A DNA stretch of 64,000 nt from Streptomyces griseus (GTDB lineage: Bacteria; Actinomycetota; Actinomycetes; Streptomycetales; Streptomycetaceae). Numbering within the stretch: the stretch's first letter is position 1; each line of letters begins with the position of its first letter. A program made the position numbers and the translations under genes. The stretch lies in assembly GCF_001715295.1 (NCBI RefSeq), contig NZ_MDKB01000002.1:1137522-1201521 (forward strand), written 5' to 3'. Below, in pieces: positions 51,964 through 60,209 of the stretch. Below the pieces are notes generated by a model. That model was not told the origin of the DNA and did no database searches. It saw only the letters and a program-made list of their open reading frames with translations.

Positions 51964-52402
51964 TGCCGTGCCGCGGTCCCGGGATCCGCCGCACGGCACC
52001 GCGCCGCCCCACTCACGGCGCAGGCCGCCGGGCACCGGCCGCAGGACACCGGCCGGGACGTCTCCGCGGGGGGAGCCACGACCTGACCGGCCGGCCCGAC
52101 GGCCCCGGGCGACGTACCGCCGGGTGCGGCCGGACACGTCCGGAGGCCGCCCCGGGATGCCCGGCGGACCGCGCGCGGCGGCGGCACCGGACTCCGGCCG
52201 CCCCGCACCGGCTGACGTGACGTCACCCGCCTTACCCCTCACGGGCGCACGTTCGTTGTCGAGGGCCTGTGCAGAGCGTTCACCCGATGCTGACGAGTCC
52301 GCCCGTTACAAGGCAGACTGTGGAGCGCCATACCGGCGGTACAGAGGTACGGATCAGAGCGGGATCGGCAGGACCGGCGGGGCGAGCAGAACAGGGGGCA
52401 TC
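51964..52402. other. Non-coding interval upstream of afsR
   Basis: About 440 bp. The left part is G+C-rich without features. GTGACGTCAC (52217-52226) is a 10-bp perfect palindrome, and GTTCACC (52278-52284) is an isolated PHO-box-like heptamer. The afsR promoter probably lies after 52220. No ORF credible. Confidence 0.4.
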
Positions 52403-55372
52403 ATGGACCGCGACAACGGACCCGGCGTGCGCGTTCCGGGGCAACGCGCCGCACGGGAACGGGTGGCCGGCACCGATCTGCGCTTCACCGTGCTCGGCCC
52501 CGTACGCGCCTGGCGCGGCGGCGAGGCCCTGCCGTCCGGGTCTCCGCAGCAACGGGCCCTGCTGGCCGCCCTGCTGCTGCGCGGCGGCCGCACGGCCACC
52601 GCCGCGGAACTCATCGACGCCCTCTGGGGCGACGACCCCCCGTCCCAGGCCCTGGCCACGGTACGCACCTACGCGTCCCGGCTGCGCAAGACCCTGGGCC
52701 AGGACACCCTGGTCAGCGAGGCCGGGGGCTACGCGCTCCGGATCCCCCGCGAGGCCCTGGACCTGTCGCTCGCCCAGGACCTGGCCGCCGAGGCGGAGAA
52801 GGTGCGCGGCGCGGACCGCTGCCAGGCCCGCACCCTGATCAACAAGCTGCTCGGCCTGTGGGACGGCGAGGCCCTGGCCTCCCTCCCCGGGCCGTACGCG
52901 GAGAACCAGCGCACCAGCCTGGAGGAGTGGCGCCTCCAGCTCACCGAGACCCGGCTGGATCTGGACCTCGAGGTGGGCTGCCACGCGGAGGCGGTCTCCG
53001 AACTGACCGCGCTCACCGCCGCGCACCCCCTGCGCGAGCGGCTGCGCGAGCTGTTGATGGTCGCCCTGTACCGCAGCGGCCGGCAGGCCGAGGCCCTCGC
53101 GGTCTACGCCGACACCCGCCGCCTGCTCGCGGAGGAACTCGGCGTCGACCCGCGCCCCGAGCTGGCCCAGCTCCAGCAGCGGATCCTCCGGGCCGACGAG
53201 GAGCTGGCCCGGCCGGCCGACGAACCGGCCACGGCCCCGGCGCAGGTCCGTCCCGCCCAGCTCCCGGCCACCGTGCCGGACTTCACGGGCCGCGCCGCCT
53301 TCGTACGCGACCTGGGTGACCGGCTCGTCACCGCCGAGGGCTCCGTGATGGCCGTCTCCGCGCTGGCCGGCATCGGCGGTGTGGGCAAGACGACCCTGGC
53401 CGTGCACATCGCCCACCGGGCCCGGCCGCACTTCCCGGACGGCCAGCTGTACGTCGACCTCCAGGGCGCGGGCTCCCGGGCCGCCGAACCCGAGACCGTA
53501 CTCGGAGCGTTCCTGCGCGCGCTGGGCACACCCGACTCCGCGATCCCGGACTCCCTGGACGAGCGGGCGGCCCTCTACCGCTCCACCCTCGACGGCCGTC
53601 GCGTCCTGGTCCTGCTCGACAACGCGCACGACGCGGCCCAGGTCCGGCCCCTGCTCCCCGGCACGGAGGGCTGTGCGGCGCTGGTCACCAGCCGCGTCCG
53701 CATGGTCGACCTGGCCGGCGCCCACCTCGTGGACCTGGACGTGCTGTCCCCCGAGGAGGCCCTGCAGCTCTTCACCCGCATCGTCGGCGGCGAACGCGTC
53801 CGCTCGGAGCGCGAGGCCGCCCTGGACGTGGTGGCCGCCTGCGGATTCCTGCCGCTGGCCATCCGTATCGCCGCGTCCCGGCTGGCCGCCCGCCGCACCT
53901 GGACGGTGTCGGTCCTGGCCGCGAAGCTCGCCGACGAGCGCCGCCGCCTGGACGAGCTCCAGGCCGGCGACCTCGCGGTGAAGGCCACCTTCGAGCTCGG
54001 CTACGGCCAGCTGGAGCCGGCCCAGGCCCGCGCCTTCCGCCTCCTGGGCCTGGCGGACGGCCCGGACATCTCTCTCGCGGCGGCGGCGGCCCTTCTCAAC
54101 CTGGATCCCCACACGGCGGAGGACCTCCTGGAGTCGCTGGTCGACACCAGCCTGCTGGAGTCCGCCGCCCCGGGTCGTTACCGCTACCACGACCTGGTGC
54201 GCCTCTACGCGCGTGCGTGCGCGGAGCGCGACGAACAGCCGCCGGTGGAACGGGACCTGGCACTGTCCCGGCTGCTGGACTTCTACCTGTCGACGGCGGC
54301 GGGGGTCTACGCGCTCGAGCGGCCCGGCGAGCGGGTGCTCGACCACTTCTCGCGCACCGCCTACGTCGGCCTCACGTTCACGGTGCGGGAGACGGCTCTG
54401 GACTGGCTCTTCTCGGAGTCCAGCGGACTGCTGGCCTGTGCGGCCCAGTCAGCCGGGTGCGGCATGCCGCGGCGCGCCGCTGACCTGCTCATGGCCGTGG
54501 TGGACCTGGGTGAATCCGGGGCCAACTCGCATCAGTTCGCCACCGCGGCCAAGGCGGTGAGCGACGCGGCACGGTCGGCGGGCGACGCACAGGCCGAGGG
54601 CCGGGCCCGCACGATGCTGACCCACGCCCTCAGCGTGTCCGGGCGGTTCGCGGAGGCCGAGACGGAGGCCCGGCGCGCCCTGGAGCTGGGGCGGCTGGCC
54701 GACGATCCCGTCTCCCTCGGCCAGGTACCGAACCAGCGGGGCATCATCGCGCTGTACGAGAACCGCCACGCCGACGCCGAGGACCACCTGAGGGAGGCGC
54801 TGGCCGCCTTCCGCGCGGACGGCAACAAGCCCGGCGAGGCCTCGGCCCTGTGCAACCTGTCCCGCGTCCATCTGGCGACGGGCAGGACGGCGAGCGCGGT
54901 CGAGCTCGCCCAGCAGGGGGTCACGATCTACGAGGCGGACACCTCGGGCCTGGCCCTGCGCCTCGCCAACGGGAAGTACGCCCTCGGGCTGGCGCTCACC
55001 GGTACGGGGCAGACCGCCTCCGCCCTGGAGACGCTCACGGAGGCCATGGCGGTGTTCCGCGACAGCCGGCAGCAACTCTGGCACGGGATGACCCTGTTCC
55101 GTCTGGCCGAGCTGCACCTCACCATCCGTCAGCCGGCCCACGCGGCGTCCCATGCCGAGCACGCCCTGGCGATCCTGCGCGGCATCGGGGGCGACTGGCG
55201 CCGGGCCAACGTCCTGACCACCCTGGGCCGCGGCCTCGCGGGCATAGGTCAGACGGACCGGGCGCAGGTCTGCTGGAACGAGGCGCTGGCGGTGTTCGAG
55301 GACCTCGGCTCGCCGGAAGCGGCGACGGTCCGCCAACTGCTGGCCCCGGCCCCGGTCGCCACGGCGTCCTGA
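52403..55372 (+). CDS. afsR: AfsR-type SARP transcriptional activator
   Basis: A 989-residue regulator, the same size and order of domains as AfsR of Streptomyces coelicolor. An OmpR-like winged helix (about 25-110: GSPQQRALLAALLLRGG) is followed by the bacterial transcriptional activation domain (about 115-265, YRSGRQAEALAVYADTRRLL). Next come an NB-ARC ATPase with Walker A GIGGVGKTTLA (Lys329) and LVLLDNAHDAAQV, and a C-terminal TPR region from about 690. AfsR is phosphorylated by AfsK-type kinases and activates afsS; both genes are close by here. ATG 52403 follows AGGGGG. Confidence 0.93.
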   Translation: MDRDNGPGVRVPGQRAARERVAGTDLRFTVLGPVRAWRGGEALPSGSPQQRALLAALLLRGGRTATAAELIDALWGDDPPSQALATVRTYASRLRKTLGQDTLVSEAGGYALRIPREALDLSLAQDLAAEAEKVRGADRCQARTLINKLLGLWDGEALASLPGPYAENQRTSLEEWRLQLTETRLDLDLEVGCHAEAVSELTALTAAHPLRERLRELLMVALYRSGRQAEALAVYADTRRLLAEELGVDPRPELAQLQQRILRADEELARPADEPATAPAQVRPAQLPATVPDFTGRAAFVRDLGDRLVTAEGSVMAVSALAGIGGVGKTTLAVHIAHRARPHFPDGQLYVDLQGAGSRAAEPETVLGAFLRALGTPDSAIPDSLDERAALYRSTLDGRRVLVLLDNAHDAAQVRPLLPGTEGCAALVTSRVRMVDLAGAHLVDLDVLSPEEALQLFTRIVGGERVRSEREAALDVVAACGFLPLAIRIAASRLAARRTWTVSVLAAKLADERRRLDELQAGDLAVKATFELGYGQLEPAQARAFRLLGLADGPDISLAAAAALLNLDPHTAEDLLESLVDTSLLESAAPGRYRYHDLVRLYARACAERDEQPPVERDLALSRLLDFYLSTAAGVYALERPGERVLDHFSRTAYVGLTFTVRETALDWLFSESSGLLACAAQSAGCGMPRRAADLLMAVVDLGESGANSHQFATAAKAVSDAARSAGDAQAEGRARTMLTHALSVSGRFAEAETEARRALELGRLADDPVSLGQVPNQRGIIALYENRHADAEDHLREALAAFRADGNKPGEASALCNLSRVHLATGRTASAVELAQQGVTIYEADTSGLALRLANGKYALGLALTGTGQTASALETLTEAMAVFRDSRQQLWHGMTLFRLAELHLTIRQPAHAASHAEHALAILRGIGGDWRRANVLTTLGRGLAGIGQTDRAQVCWNEALAVFEDLGSPEAATVRQLLAPAPVATAS

Positions 55373-55377
55373 CCGGC

Positions 55378-55418
55378 GTTCATCAATCGTTTATCGCCGC
55401 ACGGCACTCTCTTACTCA
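55378..55418 (+). promoter_or_regulatory. afsS promoter with AfsR/PHO-box direct repeat
   Basis: GTTCATC (55378-55384) and GTTTATC (55389-55395) are heptamers 11 bp apart, the spacing of SARP sites and of the GTTCACC PHO box. The second covers the -35 position (GTTTAT 55389-55394), 18 bp from a possible -10 TACTCA (55413-55418). AfsR is known to bind repeats overlapping the afsS -35 in S. coelicolor, and PhoP competes there. Confidence 0.65.
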
Positions 55419-55488
55419 TCGATCCGTCGCGTCGGGGGGCAGACGGATCGTCGAGTGGCCTCACCGTTAGGGTGATCGGCCCTGGGAG

Positions 55489-55526
55489 GCCCGCCCGGCG
55501 ATCCACGGGGGAACCGCCGGGCGGGC
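55489..55526 (+). promoter_or_regulatory. Leader hairpin upstream of afsS
   Basis: GCCCGCCCGGCG (55489-55500) and CGCCGGGCGGGC (55515-55526) form a 12-bp perfect stem with 14-nt loop, 41 bases before ATG 55568. It could terminate afsR read-through or structure the afsS leader. No T tract. Confidence 0.5.
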
Positions 55527-55567
55527 TCATCCGTCCGCTGTCAGAACCGTTTCAGGAGTTGAACTTC

Positions 55568-55741
55568 ATGGCCGACAAGAGCGACATCCTCAAGCCGACG
55601 GACGCGCACGCCACAGGCGCGGAGATCACCACTCAGGACGCCCACGCCACCGGCACGCCGCTCAAGCCCACGGACGCACACGCCACAGGCGGGACGCTCA
55701 CCACCCAGGACGCGCACGCCACGAGCGAGCCGGCCAACTAG
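55568..55741 (+). CDS. afsS: AfsS-like small repeat protein
   Basis: A 57-residue protein made almost wholly of repeats. DAHAT occurs four times, alternating KPTDAHATG and TTQDAHATG. At DNA level two 72-bp units (55589-55660 and 55661-55732) are tandem copies. Position right after afsR, size and T/D/H repeats match AfsS, the sigma-like global activator of antibiotic genes in S. coelicolor, whose mechanism is not settled. AGGAG precedes ATG 55568. No cysteine, signal peptide or hydrophobic segment, so a soluble cytoplasmic protein. Followed by a strong bidirectional terminator. Confidence 0.85.
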   Translation: MADKSDILKPTDAHATGAEITTQDAHATGTPLKPTDAHATGGTLTTQDAHATSEPAN

Positions 55742-55933: not shown

Positions 55934-56470
55934 TCAGTAGACCTCCGCCGTGACCTGGCAGCGCTTCACCCGGGAGACCAGGCGCGGGCTGTCCATCCTG
56001 ACCGTCAGCGTCTTCGCCTCGTCGTGGTCGAGGTCGACCGTGGCCTCGCCCGTGTCGACGGTCAGGCCCTTGGCGTCCAGGAACGTCACGTCCACCTCGT
56101 ACGTCTGCGGGGTGGTCGCCGTCGAGCGGATCTCGACCGTCGAGGTGGTCACCGCCTTGCGCGTGCCCTTCTTGGGCCGGGCGCACCGGATGACGCGGAC
56201 CTCGGGGGCTTCGGTGGCATCCGGGGCGGGGGTGGAGTAGGTGGAGCCGCCGGAGGAACCCGACGAGCTGTCGTAGTCGTCGTCGTAGTCGTGGTAGCCG
56301 CCGTTGCTCTTCTTCGAGTTGGAGCACCCGCCGCCCGAACTGCTGCTGCTCTTCCCGCTCCGGCTCTTGCCGCTCTTGCCGCTCTTCCCACCGCTGGACG
56401 TGGAGAATCCGGTGAGTGCGAGCACCACCACGACCAGCACCGCCGCGAACCTGATCCGTCGCCGCATCAT
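55934..56470 (-). CDS. Secreted low-complexity protein of unknown function
   Basis: A 178-residue protein not recognised beyond its layout. A basic N-terminus and hydrophobic core (FAAVLVVVVLALTGFS) look like a signal peptide. LTGF stands where a lipobox LTGC would be expected, so it is not a lipoprotein as written. A Ser/Gly/Lys repeat stretch (SGKSGKSGK) and an Asp/Tyr run (HDYDDDYD) follow. The last 90 residues resemble an immunoglobulin-like beta domain (EVDVTFLDAKGLTVDTGEATV), with two cysteines (IRCARP, KRCQVT). ATG 56470 or 56467 follow a GGGGGG site. Located between afsS and afsK. Confidence 0.7.
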   Translation of the reverse strand: MMRRRIRFAAVLVVVVLALTGFSTSSGGKSGKSGKSRSGKSSSSSGGGCSNSKKSNGGYHDYDDDYDSSSGSSGGSTYSTPAPDATEAPEVRVIRCARPKKGTRKAVTTSTVEIRSTATTPQTYEVDVTFLDAKGLTVDTGEATVDLDHDEAKTLTVRMDSPRLVSRVKRCQVTAEVY

Positions 56471-56698
56471 CGACGCAGCCCCCCTTGCTGTTGTCTGCTC
56501 CTGGGCCGTCGCACGGCCGCGCGACACCGTAACGCACAGCATCGCGGGCGCGGACCGACGGTCCGGTCATGACCCTGTCACAGTCCGGTCATGGTCTGGT
56601 GGCAGGCCCGACCCGCCCGGCGTAGCGTCGCAGGAGGGGAGCCGCACGGTGGGCACCGCCGGACAGGGGGTCGCACGAACGCCGCAGGAGGCTGACCG

Positions 56699-57370
56699 AT
56701 GATCCGCAACGTCCTCGGCTCGGTGATCGCCCTCGCCGGAGCGGCGGCTGCCGTCCTGAGCCCCTTCCAGCCCTGGTACGACGGCCGCCTGGGGCGGGAC
56801 TACCGCATCCAGGACCTGTTCGGCGGCATCACCGGCGCGCACGCGGCGGTCATGACCTCGATCCTGCTGCCCTTCCTGTTCGCCGCCCTCGTGACCGTCG
56901 TCGGCGTGCTCCTGCGTTCCCGCGCCGTGGTGGCGTTCGCGGGGCTCGTCGTGCTCGGTTTCACCGTGCTGTGGATGGTGCGCCAGGGGCAGGCGGCAGG
57001 CAGCCTGTCGGTCGGCAGCGACGGGACGGGGCTCCGCTGGGGCACCGCCCTGGCCGCCGGGGGCGGGCTGCTGCTCCTGCTGGGGTCCCTCCTGATGTCG
57101 GGCCGTCCGGCGGGGCGGGGCAGGCGCCGCCGCGGGGCCACCGAGCCGTATCCGGTCCCCCGGGACGACCGCCCGGACACGTGGCCGCCCACCCAGGAGC
57201 CCGGCCCGGCCGCCCAGACGTCGCCCTGGCCGGAACAGGAGCGCGACCCGTACACGGGCCCGGATCCGCGCGACCGGGAACAGTACTCCGGTCACCACCG
57301 GGGCCAGGACACCGCGTCGCACCCCACCGGGGACGAGGACCGCGACGAGCGGGACCGGGGCGACCGCTGA
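56699..57370 (+). CDS. Hypothetical membrane protein with disordered tail
   Basis: A 223-residue protein with four transmembrane helices in the first 140 residues (VIALAGAAAAVLS, VMTSILLPFLFAALVTVVGV, AVVAFAGLVVLGFTVLW, ALAAGGGLLLLLGSLLM). A polar Arg/Asp/Pro-rich cytoplasmic tail of about 85 residues follows. The extracytoplasmic loop after helix 1 has PFQPWYDGRLGRDYR. AGGAGG gives a clear start. It sits between afsS and afsK on the opposite strand from afsK. Function unknown; the tail could be a kinase target, which is speculation. Confidence 0.72.
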   Translation: MIRNVLGSVIALAGAAAAVLSPFQPWYDGRLGRDYRIQDLFGGITGAHAAVMTSILLPFLFAALVTVVGVLLRSRAVVAFAGLVVLGFTVLWMVRQGQAAGSLSVGSDGTGLRWGTALAAGGGLLLLLGSLLMSGRPAGRGRRRRGATEPYPVPRDDRPDTWPPTQEPGPAAQTSPWPEQERDPYTGPDPRDREQYSGHHRGQDTASHPTGDEDRDERDRGDR

Positions 57371-57400: not shown

Positions 57401-57532
57401 AGAGGCTGTCGGGTGACCTCTGATCGGGTGGCCACGCCCCGGCACGCACGCTTCCGGCGTTGCCCGGATGCCCTGGAATCGCACGCACCATGCCGCGTCC
57501 ACTTTCCGATCGAAGGTCACCCGTCAGCCTCT
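57401..57532. repeat. Palindromic intergenic element 5
   Basis: A 132-bp element with 19-bp terminal inverted repeats differing at one position (AGAGGCTGTCGGGTGACCT and AGGTCACCCGTCAGCCTCT). On the minus strand its interior (GGTGCGTGCGAT, then CGCCGGAAGCG and GCGTGCCGG) matches element 4. It fills the gap between convergent genes and its last base is the first base of the afsK stop codon complement. Confidence 0.8.
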
Positions 57533-59913
57533 CAGGCCCGCGGCGCCCGGCTTCCCGTGCCCGTCCCCTTCAGCGCGTCCAGCGCGTACACGCACCGGTC
57601 CTTGCTGCACGCGTACACCACGCCCGCCCGGGCCACCGGGGAGCCGGTGATCTCGCCGCCCGTGGCGAGCTTCCAGCGGAGCTGGCCGCCCGCCGCGTCC
57701 AGGGTGTAGAGGACGTGGTCCGCCGAACCGAAGTGGACCCGGCCGTCGGCGACCACCGGGGCGCCCACCACCTCGCCGCCCGCCGCGAACCGCCACTTCG
57801 GTGTCCCGGTGACGGCGTCCAGCGTGTACAGCGCGCTTCCGCTGCCGACGTGCACGTTGCCCCCCGTGACGAGCACGGGCTCGATGGACTGGCGGGCCTC
57901 CGTCGCGATGCGCCAGCGGTCCTTGCCGGTCGACGCGTCCAGTGCGTACACGGTGCCCAGGTAGTCGGCGAGGTACACCCCTCCGCCCGTGACCGCGGGT
58001 CCCGGCGCGAAGGAGGGCGGGGAGAGGAAGACGGCCGGCGACTCGAAGTGCCAGCGCACCCGGCCCGAGACCGTGTCGACCGCCAGCACCCGGGTCCCCG
58101 CGGCGACGTACACGAAGCCGTCCTGCGCGGGAGCCACCCGCACCGGCACACCGCCGCACGAGGCGGCGTCGCCGATGGGGTACGACCACCGCTCGGCGCC
58201 CGTGCGCGCGTCGACCGCCCGCAGCCGGGCGCTCTGCCAGAGGTACACCGTGCCGTCGTGGATGACCGGCCCGGCCTCCGCGTTCTCGAAGTCCGTCTGG
58301 ACGCCCCCGGTCTCCCACAGCTTCTCACCGGTGGACGCCTCCCAGGCCTGGACGCCGCCGCCCCTCGTCGCCGTCAGGACGGTGCCGCGGTCGGCCTTGA
58401 GGGAGTACACCCAGGCATCGGTCTGCAGCCGCCACCGCTCCTCACCGGTCGCCGCGTCCAGCGCGTACAGCGACGGGCCGTCCGAGGCGTGGATCCGGCC
58501 GCCTTCCACGGCCATCGCCCAGGCGACGTCCCGGGTCTTGAACTGGCGCCGCCCGTTGCCGACGTCCAGGGCGTGGACCTCGAACGACGTCACGTACAGC
58601 AGGTCACCGACCACGACCGGGGTGCCCCACACGTCGTTCGACATGCGGAAGCGCCACGGGCGCCAGCGCTCGGGCCCGGCCGGCGGGGCCTCCGGGGGCG
58701 GGGTGGGCGCGGGCACCGGTGCGGTCGCGGTCCCCGGGCCGCCGGTCGCCCCCGGGGCGCGCACCCAGCCGGTGGCCGGGTCGGCGTGGGCCGCGGCCGG
58801 TCCGCGGACCTCCGCCGGGCGGGGCCCGGGGCCGATCGGCACCTGGGCGCCGGGCAGCCGTACGGGGCCGCCGCCGGCAGAGGGCGCGGGCGCGGTGCGG
58901 ACGTCGCCGCTGCCGCGCCACGCCCCGTCCGGGCCGGCGCTCCGCGCCGGTGGCCGCTGCGGAGGCGGCGGCACGGCCGCCGGCGCGGGGGCGGGGGCGG
59001 GGGCGGCCACGACGGCGCGGCCGCCGCCCCGGCGCTGCTCGATCATGGCGGTCGCGGGGGTGGGCAGCCAGGCGGACGCCGTACCGCTGTCGTCGCCACC
59101 CGAGGCGAACAGGTGCGGGGCCAGCTGGGCCTGGAGGTCGGCCGGGCTGGGCCGCCGGGTCGCGTCCATCTGCATACAGGACTCGATGAGCGGGCGCAGG
59201 TCCTCCGGCAGCCCCTCCGTGTCCGGACCCTCGCGCAGGAGCATGAAGACGGTCTCGACCGGGTTCGCCCCGTGGAAGGGCGCGTGCCCCGTCGCCGCGA
59301 AGACCAGCGTCGATCCCAGCGAGAAGATGTCGCTGGCCCCCGTCACGCTGCGCGAGTCGCGGGCCTGCTCGGGAGACATGTACGCGGGGGTACCCACCGC
59401 GACGTTCGTCATCGTCAGCCGGGTGTTGGAAACGCCCGACGCGATCCCGAAGTCGATCACCCGGGGCCCGTCCTCGACGACGAGCACGTTGGACGGCTTC
59501 AGGTCGCGGTGGACGAGTCCCGCCCCGTGGATCGACTGCAGGGCCTCGGCGATACCGGCGGCCAGCCACCGCACGGCCTGGGTCGGCATCGGCCCGCACT
59601 CGCTCACTATCTCCTCGAGCGAGGGGGCGGGGACGTAGGCGGTGGCCAGCCAGGGGACGGCCGCCCGGGGATCGGCGTCCACCACGGCAGCGGTGTAGAA
59701 CCCGCTGACCGCGCGCGCCGCCTCCACCTCCCGGGTGAAGCGGACCCGGAACAGCTGGTCCTCCGCCAGTTCCGTACGGACCGTCTTGATCGCCACCCGC
59801 CGGCCCGACGCCGACCGTGCGAGATAGACCAGCCCCATGCCGCCGGCCCCGAGCCGTCCCAGCACCTCGAACGGGCCGATCCGCCGCGGGTCATGCTGCG
59901 TCAGCTGCTCCAC
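57532..59913 (-). CDS. afsK: AfsK-type Ser/Thr protein kinase with beta-propeller domain
   Basis: A 793-residue kinase matching AfsK of S. coelicolor in size and layout. The N-terminal kinase domain (about 13-270) has [12 protein letters not shown], Lys43, Asp137 in HRDLKPSN and DFG at 154-156. Thr167 in the activation loop ([13 protein letters not shown]) aligns with the activating Thr168 reported for AfsK. A Pro/Ala-rich linker (290-440) leads to a PQQ-type beta-propeller with repeats such as [14 protein letters not shown] and [14 protein letters not shown]. It phosphorylates AfsR and, in S. coelicolor, affects tip growth. GTG 59913 follows GGAGG. No transmembrane helix. Confidence 0.93.
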
Positions 59914-60209
59914 TTGCCTGCCACCTCCCCGTACGGACCTCAGGAAACGAGGCCCGCGAAATCCCGCCCTGTGCAGCGTCTCACCACTGAGCACCACCTG
60001 GCGGCGCGCACCCTGATTGTTGCTGGCTCGGGGCCCGGTTGCGAACCCGGGGGCGGATCAGGGTGTCCTGTGGCACTCCACCCGTTTCAGGACAGGGGAC
60101 GAGAAGCCGGAGGCCGGCGCCGGGCCGCGGGTCTCCGGCGGTGGCACGACCACGGCCGAGGCACCTCGCCGCTTCGCCGGAGCGCCGGCCGGCCGGCACG
60201 GGCCGGTCG
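59914..60209. other. Upstream region of afsK
   Basis: About 296 bp between the VOC gene stop and the afsK start, both on the minus strand. It contains CCCGGTTGCGAACCCGGG-type short inverted repeats near 60030-60055. They resemble a tRNA T-arm superficially but have no tRNA body. The afsK promoter is expected here. Confidence 0.35.

Follow-up and report, generated by a model that had tools for sequence, protein, structure and literature searches.

The window, a 64,000-nucleotide stretch of Streptomyces griseus DNA, carries afsR on the plus strand at 52403–55372. Its product scores 1773.5 bits against the NCBIfam family NF053617 (cut-off 1430), and a Pfam and NCBIfam scan detects BTAD, NB-ARC and TPR parts, the STAND architecture of a large SARP regulator. 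Hereafter, AfsR residue n begins at position 52400 + 3(n − 1), one above the count from the start codon at 52403. Five bases past the afsR stop, between afsR and afsS, begins a putative afs box (55377–55398, plus strand), read by eye as two 11-bp direct repeats, CGTTCATCAAT and CGTTTATCGCC, in comparison with the consensus CGTT(T/C)ATCGNN given in a passage of PMC10972967. An AGGAG ribosome-binding site, also read by eye (55554–55558, plus), precedes afsS (55568–55741, plus), a small ORF directly 3′ of afsR on the same strand that translates into 57 residues with four DAHAT pentapeptides. The two genes share a reading frame across 55370–55741 with one TGA between them, and a single stop likewise separates them in 15 other loci. 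Downstream of afsS, a protein kinase with PQQ repeats on the minus strand (57532–59997) recalls afsK. Between it and afsS sit ORFs 55934–56542 (minus) and 56699–57370 (plus), which recur in 11 and 12 of 80 named loci, counts limited by the flanks, and to which a Pfam scan assigned no family. The six afsS neighbours that were scanned are two protein kinases, a menaquinone-biosynthesis protein, a cold-shock protein and two unassigned ORFs, with no RiPP-type modifying enzyme recognised among them.

The original prediction that this ORF encodes AfsS is borne out by its position 3′ of afsR. The protein has only 7 residues ahead of its repeats. At the DNA level, a 72-nt repeat starts at 55589 and 55661 with 83% identity, accompanied by a weaker 36-nt period; repeat search and unit comparison place the two units at residues 8–31 (55589–55660) and 32–55 (55661–55732), both on the plus strand. 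The two 24-residue units described originally are therefore real, with 19 of 24 residues identical. A 12-residue unit is more basic than the 24-residue one, as published for S. coelicolor (PMC2267785), and short repeats of about this length fill the window protein. The four DAHAT copies lie, all on the plus strand, at residues 12–16 (55601–55615), 24–28 (55637–55651), 36–40 (55673–55687) and 48–52 (55709–55723), with second-residue codons GCG, GCC, GCA and GCG, respectively. The glycine said to follow each copy follows only three; the last copy precedes serine (DAHATSEP). The protein scores 19.2 bits on the NCBIfam family NF053616, under the cut-off of 60; this family is narrow, passed by 28 of 199 Streptomyces genomes, mostly of the coelicolor type, and we name the window protein AfsS for its position and architecture without counting it in this family. 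A Pfam scan of the protein gave no family reaching cut-off, and a weak sub-cut-off match to the FAM186A repeat was dismissed as composition. The suggestion that AfsS has no hydrophobic core is supported in that the protein looks disordered, with a pLDDT of about 30 for the AfsS part of a read-through AfsR–AfsS model.

The motif itself varies, and a similarity search with the window AfsS accordingly matched just 141 of 392 genomes at E 0.01; taking afsR as the anchor removed this obstacle. ORFs were gathered 3′ of afsR, and not by similarity, at 213 afsR-anchored loci (the window, 80 named contigs and 132 stretches, a few of these chosen for having AfsS matches). Named and other loci may share species; identical proteins were merged and near-identical ones kept apart. 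Our picker, which demands at least two pattern matches without demanding that they agree, found an AfsS-like ORF in 205 of the 213 loci (196 unique), in contrast to the statement in a 2008 paper that AfsS-like proteins are relatively rare (PMC2267785). Among the eight loci without a pick, L052, L138 and L255 stop at contig edges, L221 and L241 adjoin second AfsR-like matches and L218 has an AfsS ORF that the picker overlooked; L192 and L235 are the others. With repeated ORFs recurring 3′ of afsR in this way, the repeat in the window is not a chance feature.

Within a protein the copies agree, and between species they differ. When every [DNE]xHxx is counted, whatever x, 194 unique proteins have at least two copies; 186 of them carry one second residue, x, across all copies, and 181 a single pentapeptide throughout, with 66 majority pentapeptides and 16 different x among the AfsS-like proteins. 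Identity at x is 0.963 within proteins and 0.127 between them, as compared with 0.29–0.49 within and 0.11–0.34 between at flanking AfsS positions, and 2,000 shuffles of x never produced more than 11 uniform proteins. Mixed x occurs in eight proteins, through one odd copy (L053, for example, has three DAHAT and one DTHAT) or through extra pattern matches. Types without histidine mostly obey the same uniformity, including DNAMP, DNGMP, NNAMP (one locus, L042, with one deviating copy) and DSNRP; the locus L292 (genome G036) has about seven DSNRP at the AfsS position together with a secreted ORF that repeats a DNNRP-like unit, so that the uniformity appears there with no histidine in the motif. 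Of 15 loci from further genera of the family, 13 carry a repeated new pentapeptide (DNFHN, DNWHT, NIYTE and NWQPT), although these ORFs were chosen for being repeated, which shows presence and not frequency. The DAHAT of the original motif reading is not conserved; it is one species’ version of a pentapeptide that varies between species and is uniform within nearly every protein. The proposed comparison of homologues finds the repeats kept, their sequence shifting together, with no repeat-less homologues; repeat number differs among them as predicted, mostly from 2 to 8 copies.

Such sameness might arise if slippage or gene conversion homogenised the repeats and their sequence were unimportant. 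Tandem repeats with changing copy number, the 72-nt unit in the window and a slight excess of codon identity at most positions are what this process would leave. However, when two copies have the same residue and that residue is at least four-fold degenerate (Ile being counted in), their codons agree in 0.684, 0.561 and 0.478 of cases at positions 2, 4 and 5, against 0.613, 0.506 and 0.456 expected from pooled codon usage, a small excess that is far from full identity. This near-expected codon identity, together with the three different alanine codons at position 2 in the window, indicates that the copies are old. Furthermore, the flanks differ while the five residues stay identical, and homogenisation does not predict co-variation with AfsR, so we regard it as highly unlikely. 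The sameness is maintained at the protein level, which calls for one partner reading every copy. The exact codon pattern of the pentapeptide occurs only in afsS in two DNHMP and eight DMHAT genomes, barring one additional site in one of the eight DMHAT genomes, and is absent from 10 and 8 control genomes; a second gene bearing the identical pentapeptide was not found by this pattern in the DNHMP and DMHAT genomes.

The pentapeptide changes in step with the sensor half of AfsR. We analysed 127 AfsR/AfsS pairs with 53 pentapeptide codes. After regressing out distance over AfsR 30–600, windows inside 30–600 correlate with the code by at most about 0.16 in either direction, partly by construction, and the signal climbs from about residue 650, reaching for position 2 up to 0.39 across all pairs and 0.51 among near pairs. 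The code thus tracks AfsR residues 641–990, the arm/TPR half (54320–55369, plus strand), beyond what AfsR 30–600 explains. In a branch test on the full tree, changes in AfsR 641–790 are enriched 1.23-fold where position 2 changes (null 0.98 ± 0.05), and 791–890 and 891–990 are enriched 1.18- and 1.14-fold with changes at positions 4–5; the N-terminal AfsR tree gives a smaller excess spread over 641–990. When total C-terminal distance is also removed, position 2 is highest over 701–790, with its maximum at 761–790 (p = 0.014), positions 1 and 4 peak at 781–810 (p = 0.002 for each) and position 5 at 881–910 (p = 0.002), the floor for these windowed maxima being 0.002.

A test of single AfsR columns against 300 tree-simulated nulls, whose 95% maximum z is about 5, names the residues concerned. 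The strongest partner of position 2 is residue 779 (Q in the window, 54734–54736; z 13.4 and 12.6), followed by residue 701 (V, 54500–54502; z 7.7). Position 1 pairs with residue 854 (R, 54959–54961; z 8.5), position 4 with residue 785 (L, 54752–54754; z 6.1, and by independent pairs) and position 5 with residue 899 (L, 55094–55096; z 6.9), all encoded on the plus strand. Asn at position 2 goes with Asp779 in 31 pairs (Glu in 1), Ser with Glu in 13 (Met in 2, Asp in 1), Val with Ile in 13, Ala with Gln in 10 (Leu in 1) and Met with Ala in 8. At residue 701, Asn goes with Lys in 31 pairs (Arg in 1), Ser with Lys in 14 of 16, Val and Ala mostly with Val, and Met with Leu in 8. For position 1, Asp and Glu accompany Arg854 in 88 and 8 pairs, and Asn accompanies Lys in 25 and Arg in 6; residue 780 is Arg in 79 of 88 Asp and 8 Glu pairs and mostly Leu or Ser with Asn. 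Residue 785 is Leu or Ile in 84 of 89 pairs with Ala at position 4, Gly or Ala in 4 of 5 with Met and Asn in 4 of 5 with Gln; residue 899 is Leu in 76 of 87 pairs with Thr at position 5 and His in 16 of 17 with Ser. Many of these combinations read like contacts, an acid with arginine or a large residue with a small one.

Because afsS adjoins the 3′ end of afsR, we considered a linkage artefact: if afsS moved by exchange jointly with the 3′ half of afsR, any feature of afsS would track that half. Position 2 does take 70 changes on the N-terminal AfsR tree as against about 36 on the full AfsR tree of 127 species, as such exchange would produce. However, equally linked features give no comparable signal: in the same column test, nine flanking AfsS positions, copy number and length have maximum z values of 2.7–5.6, and in that control run positions 1, 2, 4 and 5 of the pentapeptide reach 8.8, 12.6, 6.7 and 7.9. 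Linkage of the gene ends therefore does not explain the main signal, and most of the co-variation with AfsR sits in the five residues themselves. Two flanks are less clear-cut: the second residue ahead of the motif exceeds its null (z 5.6, p = 0.045, at AfsR 971), and the immediately preceding residue has AfsR 779 as its top column at z 4.5, under its null. In addition, positions 1, 2, 4 and 5 do not share a single peak region in AfsR, nor do their peaks all crowd to its 3′ end, and the residue pairs are chemically sensible; a linkage artefact is accordingly a very improbable account of the data.

Independent pairs of lineages agree in direction. On the N-terminal AfsR tree, the contrast Asn/Asp779 gives 13 pairs, 11.4 of them changing the same way and 0.1 the opposite way (median p 0.001), Ser/Glu779 gives 12 pairs with 10.2 the same way and 0 opposite (median p 0.002), and position 4 with residue 785 gives 14 pairs with 12.1 the same way and 0.2 opposite (median p 0.0005); Met/Ala779, Val/Ile779 and position 1 with residue 780 do not reach 0.05 on this tree. 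On the full tree without the tested columns, Asn/Asp779 holds with 8 pairs (p = 0.03) and position 4 with 15 (p = 0.001). Ser/Glu779 there has p = 0.06, position 1 with residue 854 has 0.125 and position 5 about 0.5; the median p exceeds 0.05 in 11 of 14 tests on this tree, which offers fewer pairs and leaves most single tests underpowered. Across all 28 independent-pair tests, AfsR changes in the opposite direction average 0 to 0.3 pairs.

Held-out loci mostly keep the code. The held-out set comprises 48 AfsR rows, each less than 97% identical to any row used (28 below 80% and 20 at or above it), with L031 and L274 left out as belonging to the set used; the row for L266 displays its secreted and not its AfsS pentapeptide. 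Ala occurs with V701/H742/Q779 and Ser with K701/Q742/E779, each in 6 of 6 rows, and Asn with K701/D779 in all 7 DNHAT or DNHAS rows. Among more distant rows with Asn, 16 in number (DN?MP, NN?MP, DNHSP and DNHMP), all have Lys or Arg at residue 701, but residue 779 varies (10 Asn, 6 Asp) in a way absent from the set used; the NN?MP rows retain R780/N809/R854 although their position 1 is Asn. In a stricter distance test, which excluded any AfsR within 40% C-terminal distance and used columns chosen on the same 127 rows, four pocket residues predict position 2 correctly in 53% of cases (n = 79), against 12% for random columns (best of 300, 35%) and 13% for the nearest whole C-terminus. At this 40% cut, positions 1, 4 and 5 do not beat the commonest residue.

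A model of AfsR 561–990 (AF2, 69 sequences, mean pLDDT 88.9) is predicted to be entirely helical, with TPR proteins as its structural neighbours. Many candidate contact residues would fall on alternate helices (742/746; 779/780/785; 823; 854; 897/899; 937), as expected for residues lining a groove; in the same model 701, 809, 843 and 885 lie off this pattern. APPBP2 with its degron heads a VIA-align search (Z 28.1); lower down come phage Phi3T Rap with pheromone (25.0), MalT domain III (24.1), RapF with inhibitory peptide (23.7), Rap with CSF (23.4), NprR–NprX (21.5), AimR with peptide (18.7) and PlcR–PapR (18.2), along with LGN and further TPRs. TPRs are common, and a shared TPR fold by itself proves nothing. 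A model of a read-through AfsR–AfsS fusion gave no confident docking of the peptides, the AfsS part having a pLDDT of about 30.

The co-variation leads us to propose AfsS as the missing ligand of the AfsR sensor. AfsR is restrained in vitro by its NB-ARC and TPR parts, and ATP binding lifts this restraint, according to PMC10936776, which describes inducer binding to the sensor with the words ‘remains elusive’ and reports that AfsR induces afsS expression. We consider it quite probable, from the pattern of substitutions, that the AfsR sensor recognises the pentapeptides of AfsS as a multivalent, species-specific ligand, which makes a multivalent linear motif, as originally suggested, the best reading of the protein. 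AfsR would switch on the adjacent afsS, and AfsS would return as a ligand of the AfsR arm/TPR part, closing a feedback loop. Each pentapeptide, DAHAT here, may lie extended along the TPR groove; we infer contacts in which the second residue would point toward 701/742/746/779, the first toward 780/809/854, the fourth toward 785/823 and the fifth toward 897/899/937. An AfsS chain with its several copies could then link a number of AfsR molecules and contribute to the release or the assembly of the autoinhibited regulator. On this proposal, the copies would be identical because all must suit one groove, and species would diverge because peptide and groove can drift together. Against the proposal, multicopy afsS may act without afsR. 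In vitro, moreover, ATP by itself is enough to lift the autoinhibition of AfsR, and AfsS is to that extent dispensable under the conditions described (PMC10936776).

The sign of the effect is a separate matter, on which co-variation is silent. Activation fits best, because an afsS disruptant is reported to lose actinorhodin in phosphate-free R5− medium; the effect is much weaker in R2YE, and undecylprodigiosin is only marginally altered (PMC2267785). We therefore favour activation, with less assurance than binding itself. If AfsS instead bound AfsR as a negative-feedback or decoy ligand that damps it, the induction of afsS by AfsR (PMC10936776) would make sense. The same actinorhodin loss and the description of AfsS as a mainly positive regulator (PMC2267785) stand against this, and we judge damping unlikely. 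Another published proposal makes AfsS sigma-like, with RNA polymerase or DNA as its binding target, an idea consistent with an annotation drawn from residues of sigma domain 3 (PMC2267785) and with a review that lists AfsS as binding upstream of the act and red regulators (PMC6988585). However, 66 forms of the motif between species are unlike the selection expected from a conserved RNA polymerase, the window AfsS reaches the cut-off of no Pfam family and the co-variation points to AfsR, which leaves sigma-like action scarcely credible.

A minority of species carry, 3′ of afsS, a further small ORF that is predicted to be secreted, a signal peptide being followed by the pentapeptide at the predicted start of the mature protein and often by another at its end. 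In one locus (L071, 5737–5910) it bears DQHAT three times; others include L127 (from 5792 onwards), L265, L268 and L279. A profile search finds 25 places at E < 1e-6 in 24 of 199 genomes, 22 of which, by our reading, adjoin afsR/afsS. The genome of the window has none at E 0.1 by profile and the window itself none by pattern search, and three secreted members that were scanned reach the cut-off of no NCBIfam or Pfam family. Dropping L070, L254, L278 and duplicate code pairs reduces the comparison with AfsS from 40 to 32 rows, in which the secreted and AfsS residues agree at position 2 in 14 (3.6 expected), at position 4 in 16 (7.9), at position 5 in 23 (12.5) and at position 1 in 26 (23.1), the shuffle expectations ignoring relatedness of the rows. 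The pentapeptide is uniform in 13 of the 32 secreted ORFs. Two loci differ in form: L070 has a DNHAT AfsS and a secreted ORF with three DNHMT and two Cys, and L278 (G097:C408), from a genome with its afsR match on a different contig, encodes a larger secreted protein with DQHVS, ENHAT and DAHVT before a Cys-containing domain. D-x-H at a mature N-terminus would be an amino-terminal Cu/Ni-binding site, as in albumin DAHK, and a metal role is possible for the secreted cousin. Metal binding through NH2-x-x-His was set aside as an explanation of the motif, as several AfsS lineages have lost the histidine.

The original comparison of AfsS with peptide precursors gains from these secreted cousins in other species and loses from the six neighbouring genes, among which no modifying enzyme is recognised, and from the lack of a signal peptide in AfsS. 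AfsS could be a precursor that is cut to free pentapeptides; these, possibly joined by the secreted cousin, would then be what AfsR actually binds. Identical repeated short peptides resemble pheromone precursors, the secreted cousins are predicted to start with the pentapeptide once mature and often end with it as well, and the AfsR model has a Rap-like TPR fold. However, AfsS itself is not marked for export, the secreted majority pentapeptide equals that of AfsS in none of the 32 non-redundant rows and the window genome is without a secreted cousin by profile, so we find cleavage to free peptides rather improbable. A wider reading that keeps AfsS as the multivalent assembly ligand would have STAND regulators use a private peptide language, in which the AfsR sensor of each species reads its own pentapeptide on cytosolic AfsS and, in some species, the secreted cousin with its related but different pentapeptide allows outside cells to compete for or tune that sensor; we offer this tentatively and think it more doubtful than not.

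The window AfsS resembles AfsS (AfsR2) of S. coelicolor and S. lividans in its gene position 3′ of afsR, its afs box and its small protein of 12-residue repeats. Short repeats were thus already published, S. coelicolor AfsS being described as 63 residues with three 12-residue repeats (PMC2267785). The locus L032, which matches by eye the S. coelicolor afsS primers in that paper, encodes three DNHMP, whereas the window AfsS carries four DAHAT. Beyond the earlier motif reading stand the uniformity within each protein and the co-variation with AfsR, and neither the rule of identity within and difference between proteins nor this co-variation was found in the open-access literature searched. RRNPP systems (Rap–Phr, NprR–NprX, PlcR–PapR and AimR), surveyed in Firmicutes and viruses in PMC10075063, combine, as we propose for AfsR and AfsS, a TPR receptor with an adjacent gene for a short varying peptide. 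In contrast, AfsS is multi-copy and not secreted, the window protein having no signal peptide of the kind carried by an RRNPP propeptide, and AfsR is a STAND protein of about 990 residues with SARP and NB-ARC parts. MalT-type STAND regulators share the NB-ARC and TPR-like sensor seen in AfsR. The MalT inducer is maltotriose, as noted in PMC10936776, whereas the ligand we propose for AfsR is a protein from its own target gene.

How AfsS works is described as unknown in PMC10972967; its variation in step with the AfsR sensor suggests that it is the missing ligand, a reading that would answer both its mode of action and the question of the AfsR inducer, with named residues. It would also offer a route to matched and mismatched AfsR/AfsS pairs that alter antibiotic output in laboratory Streptomyces, and the present-day AfsS and AfsR sequences would document how a peptide and its TPR groove drift in concert in nature. 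If the private peptide language is real, Actinobacteria, in Streptomyces and its relatives, would have species-private peptide signalling over antibiotic production.
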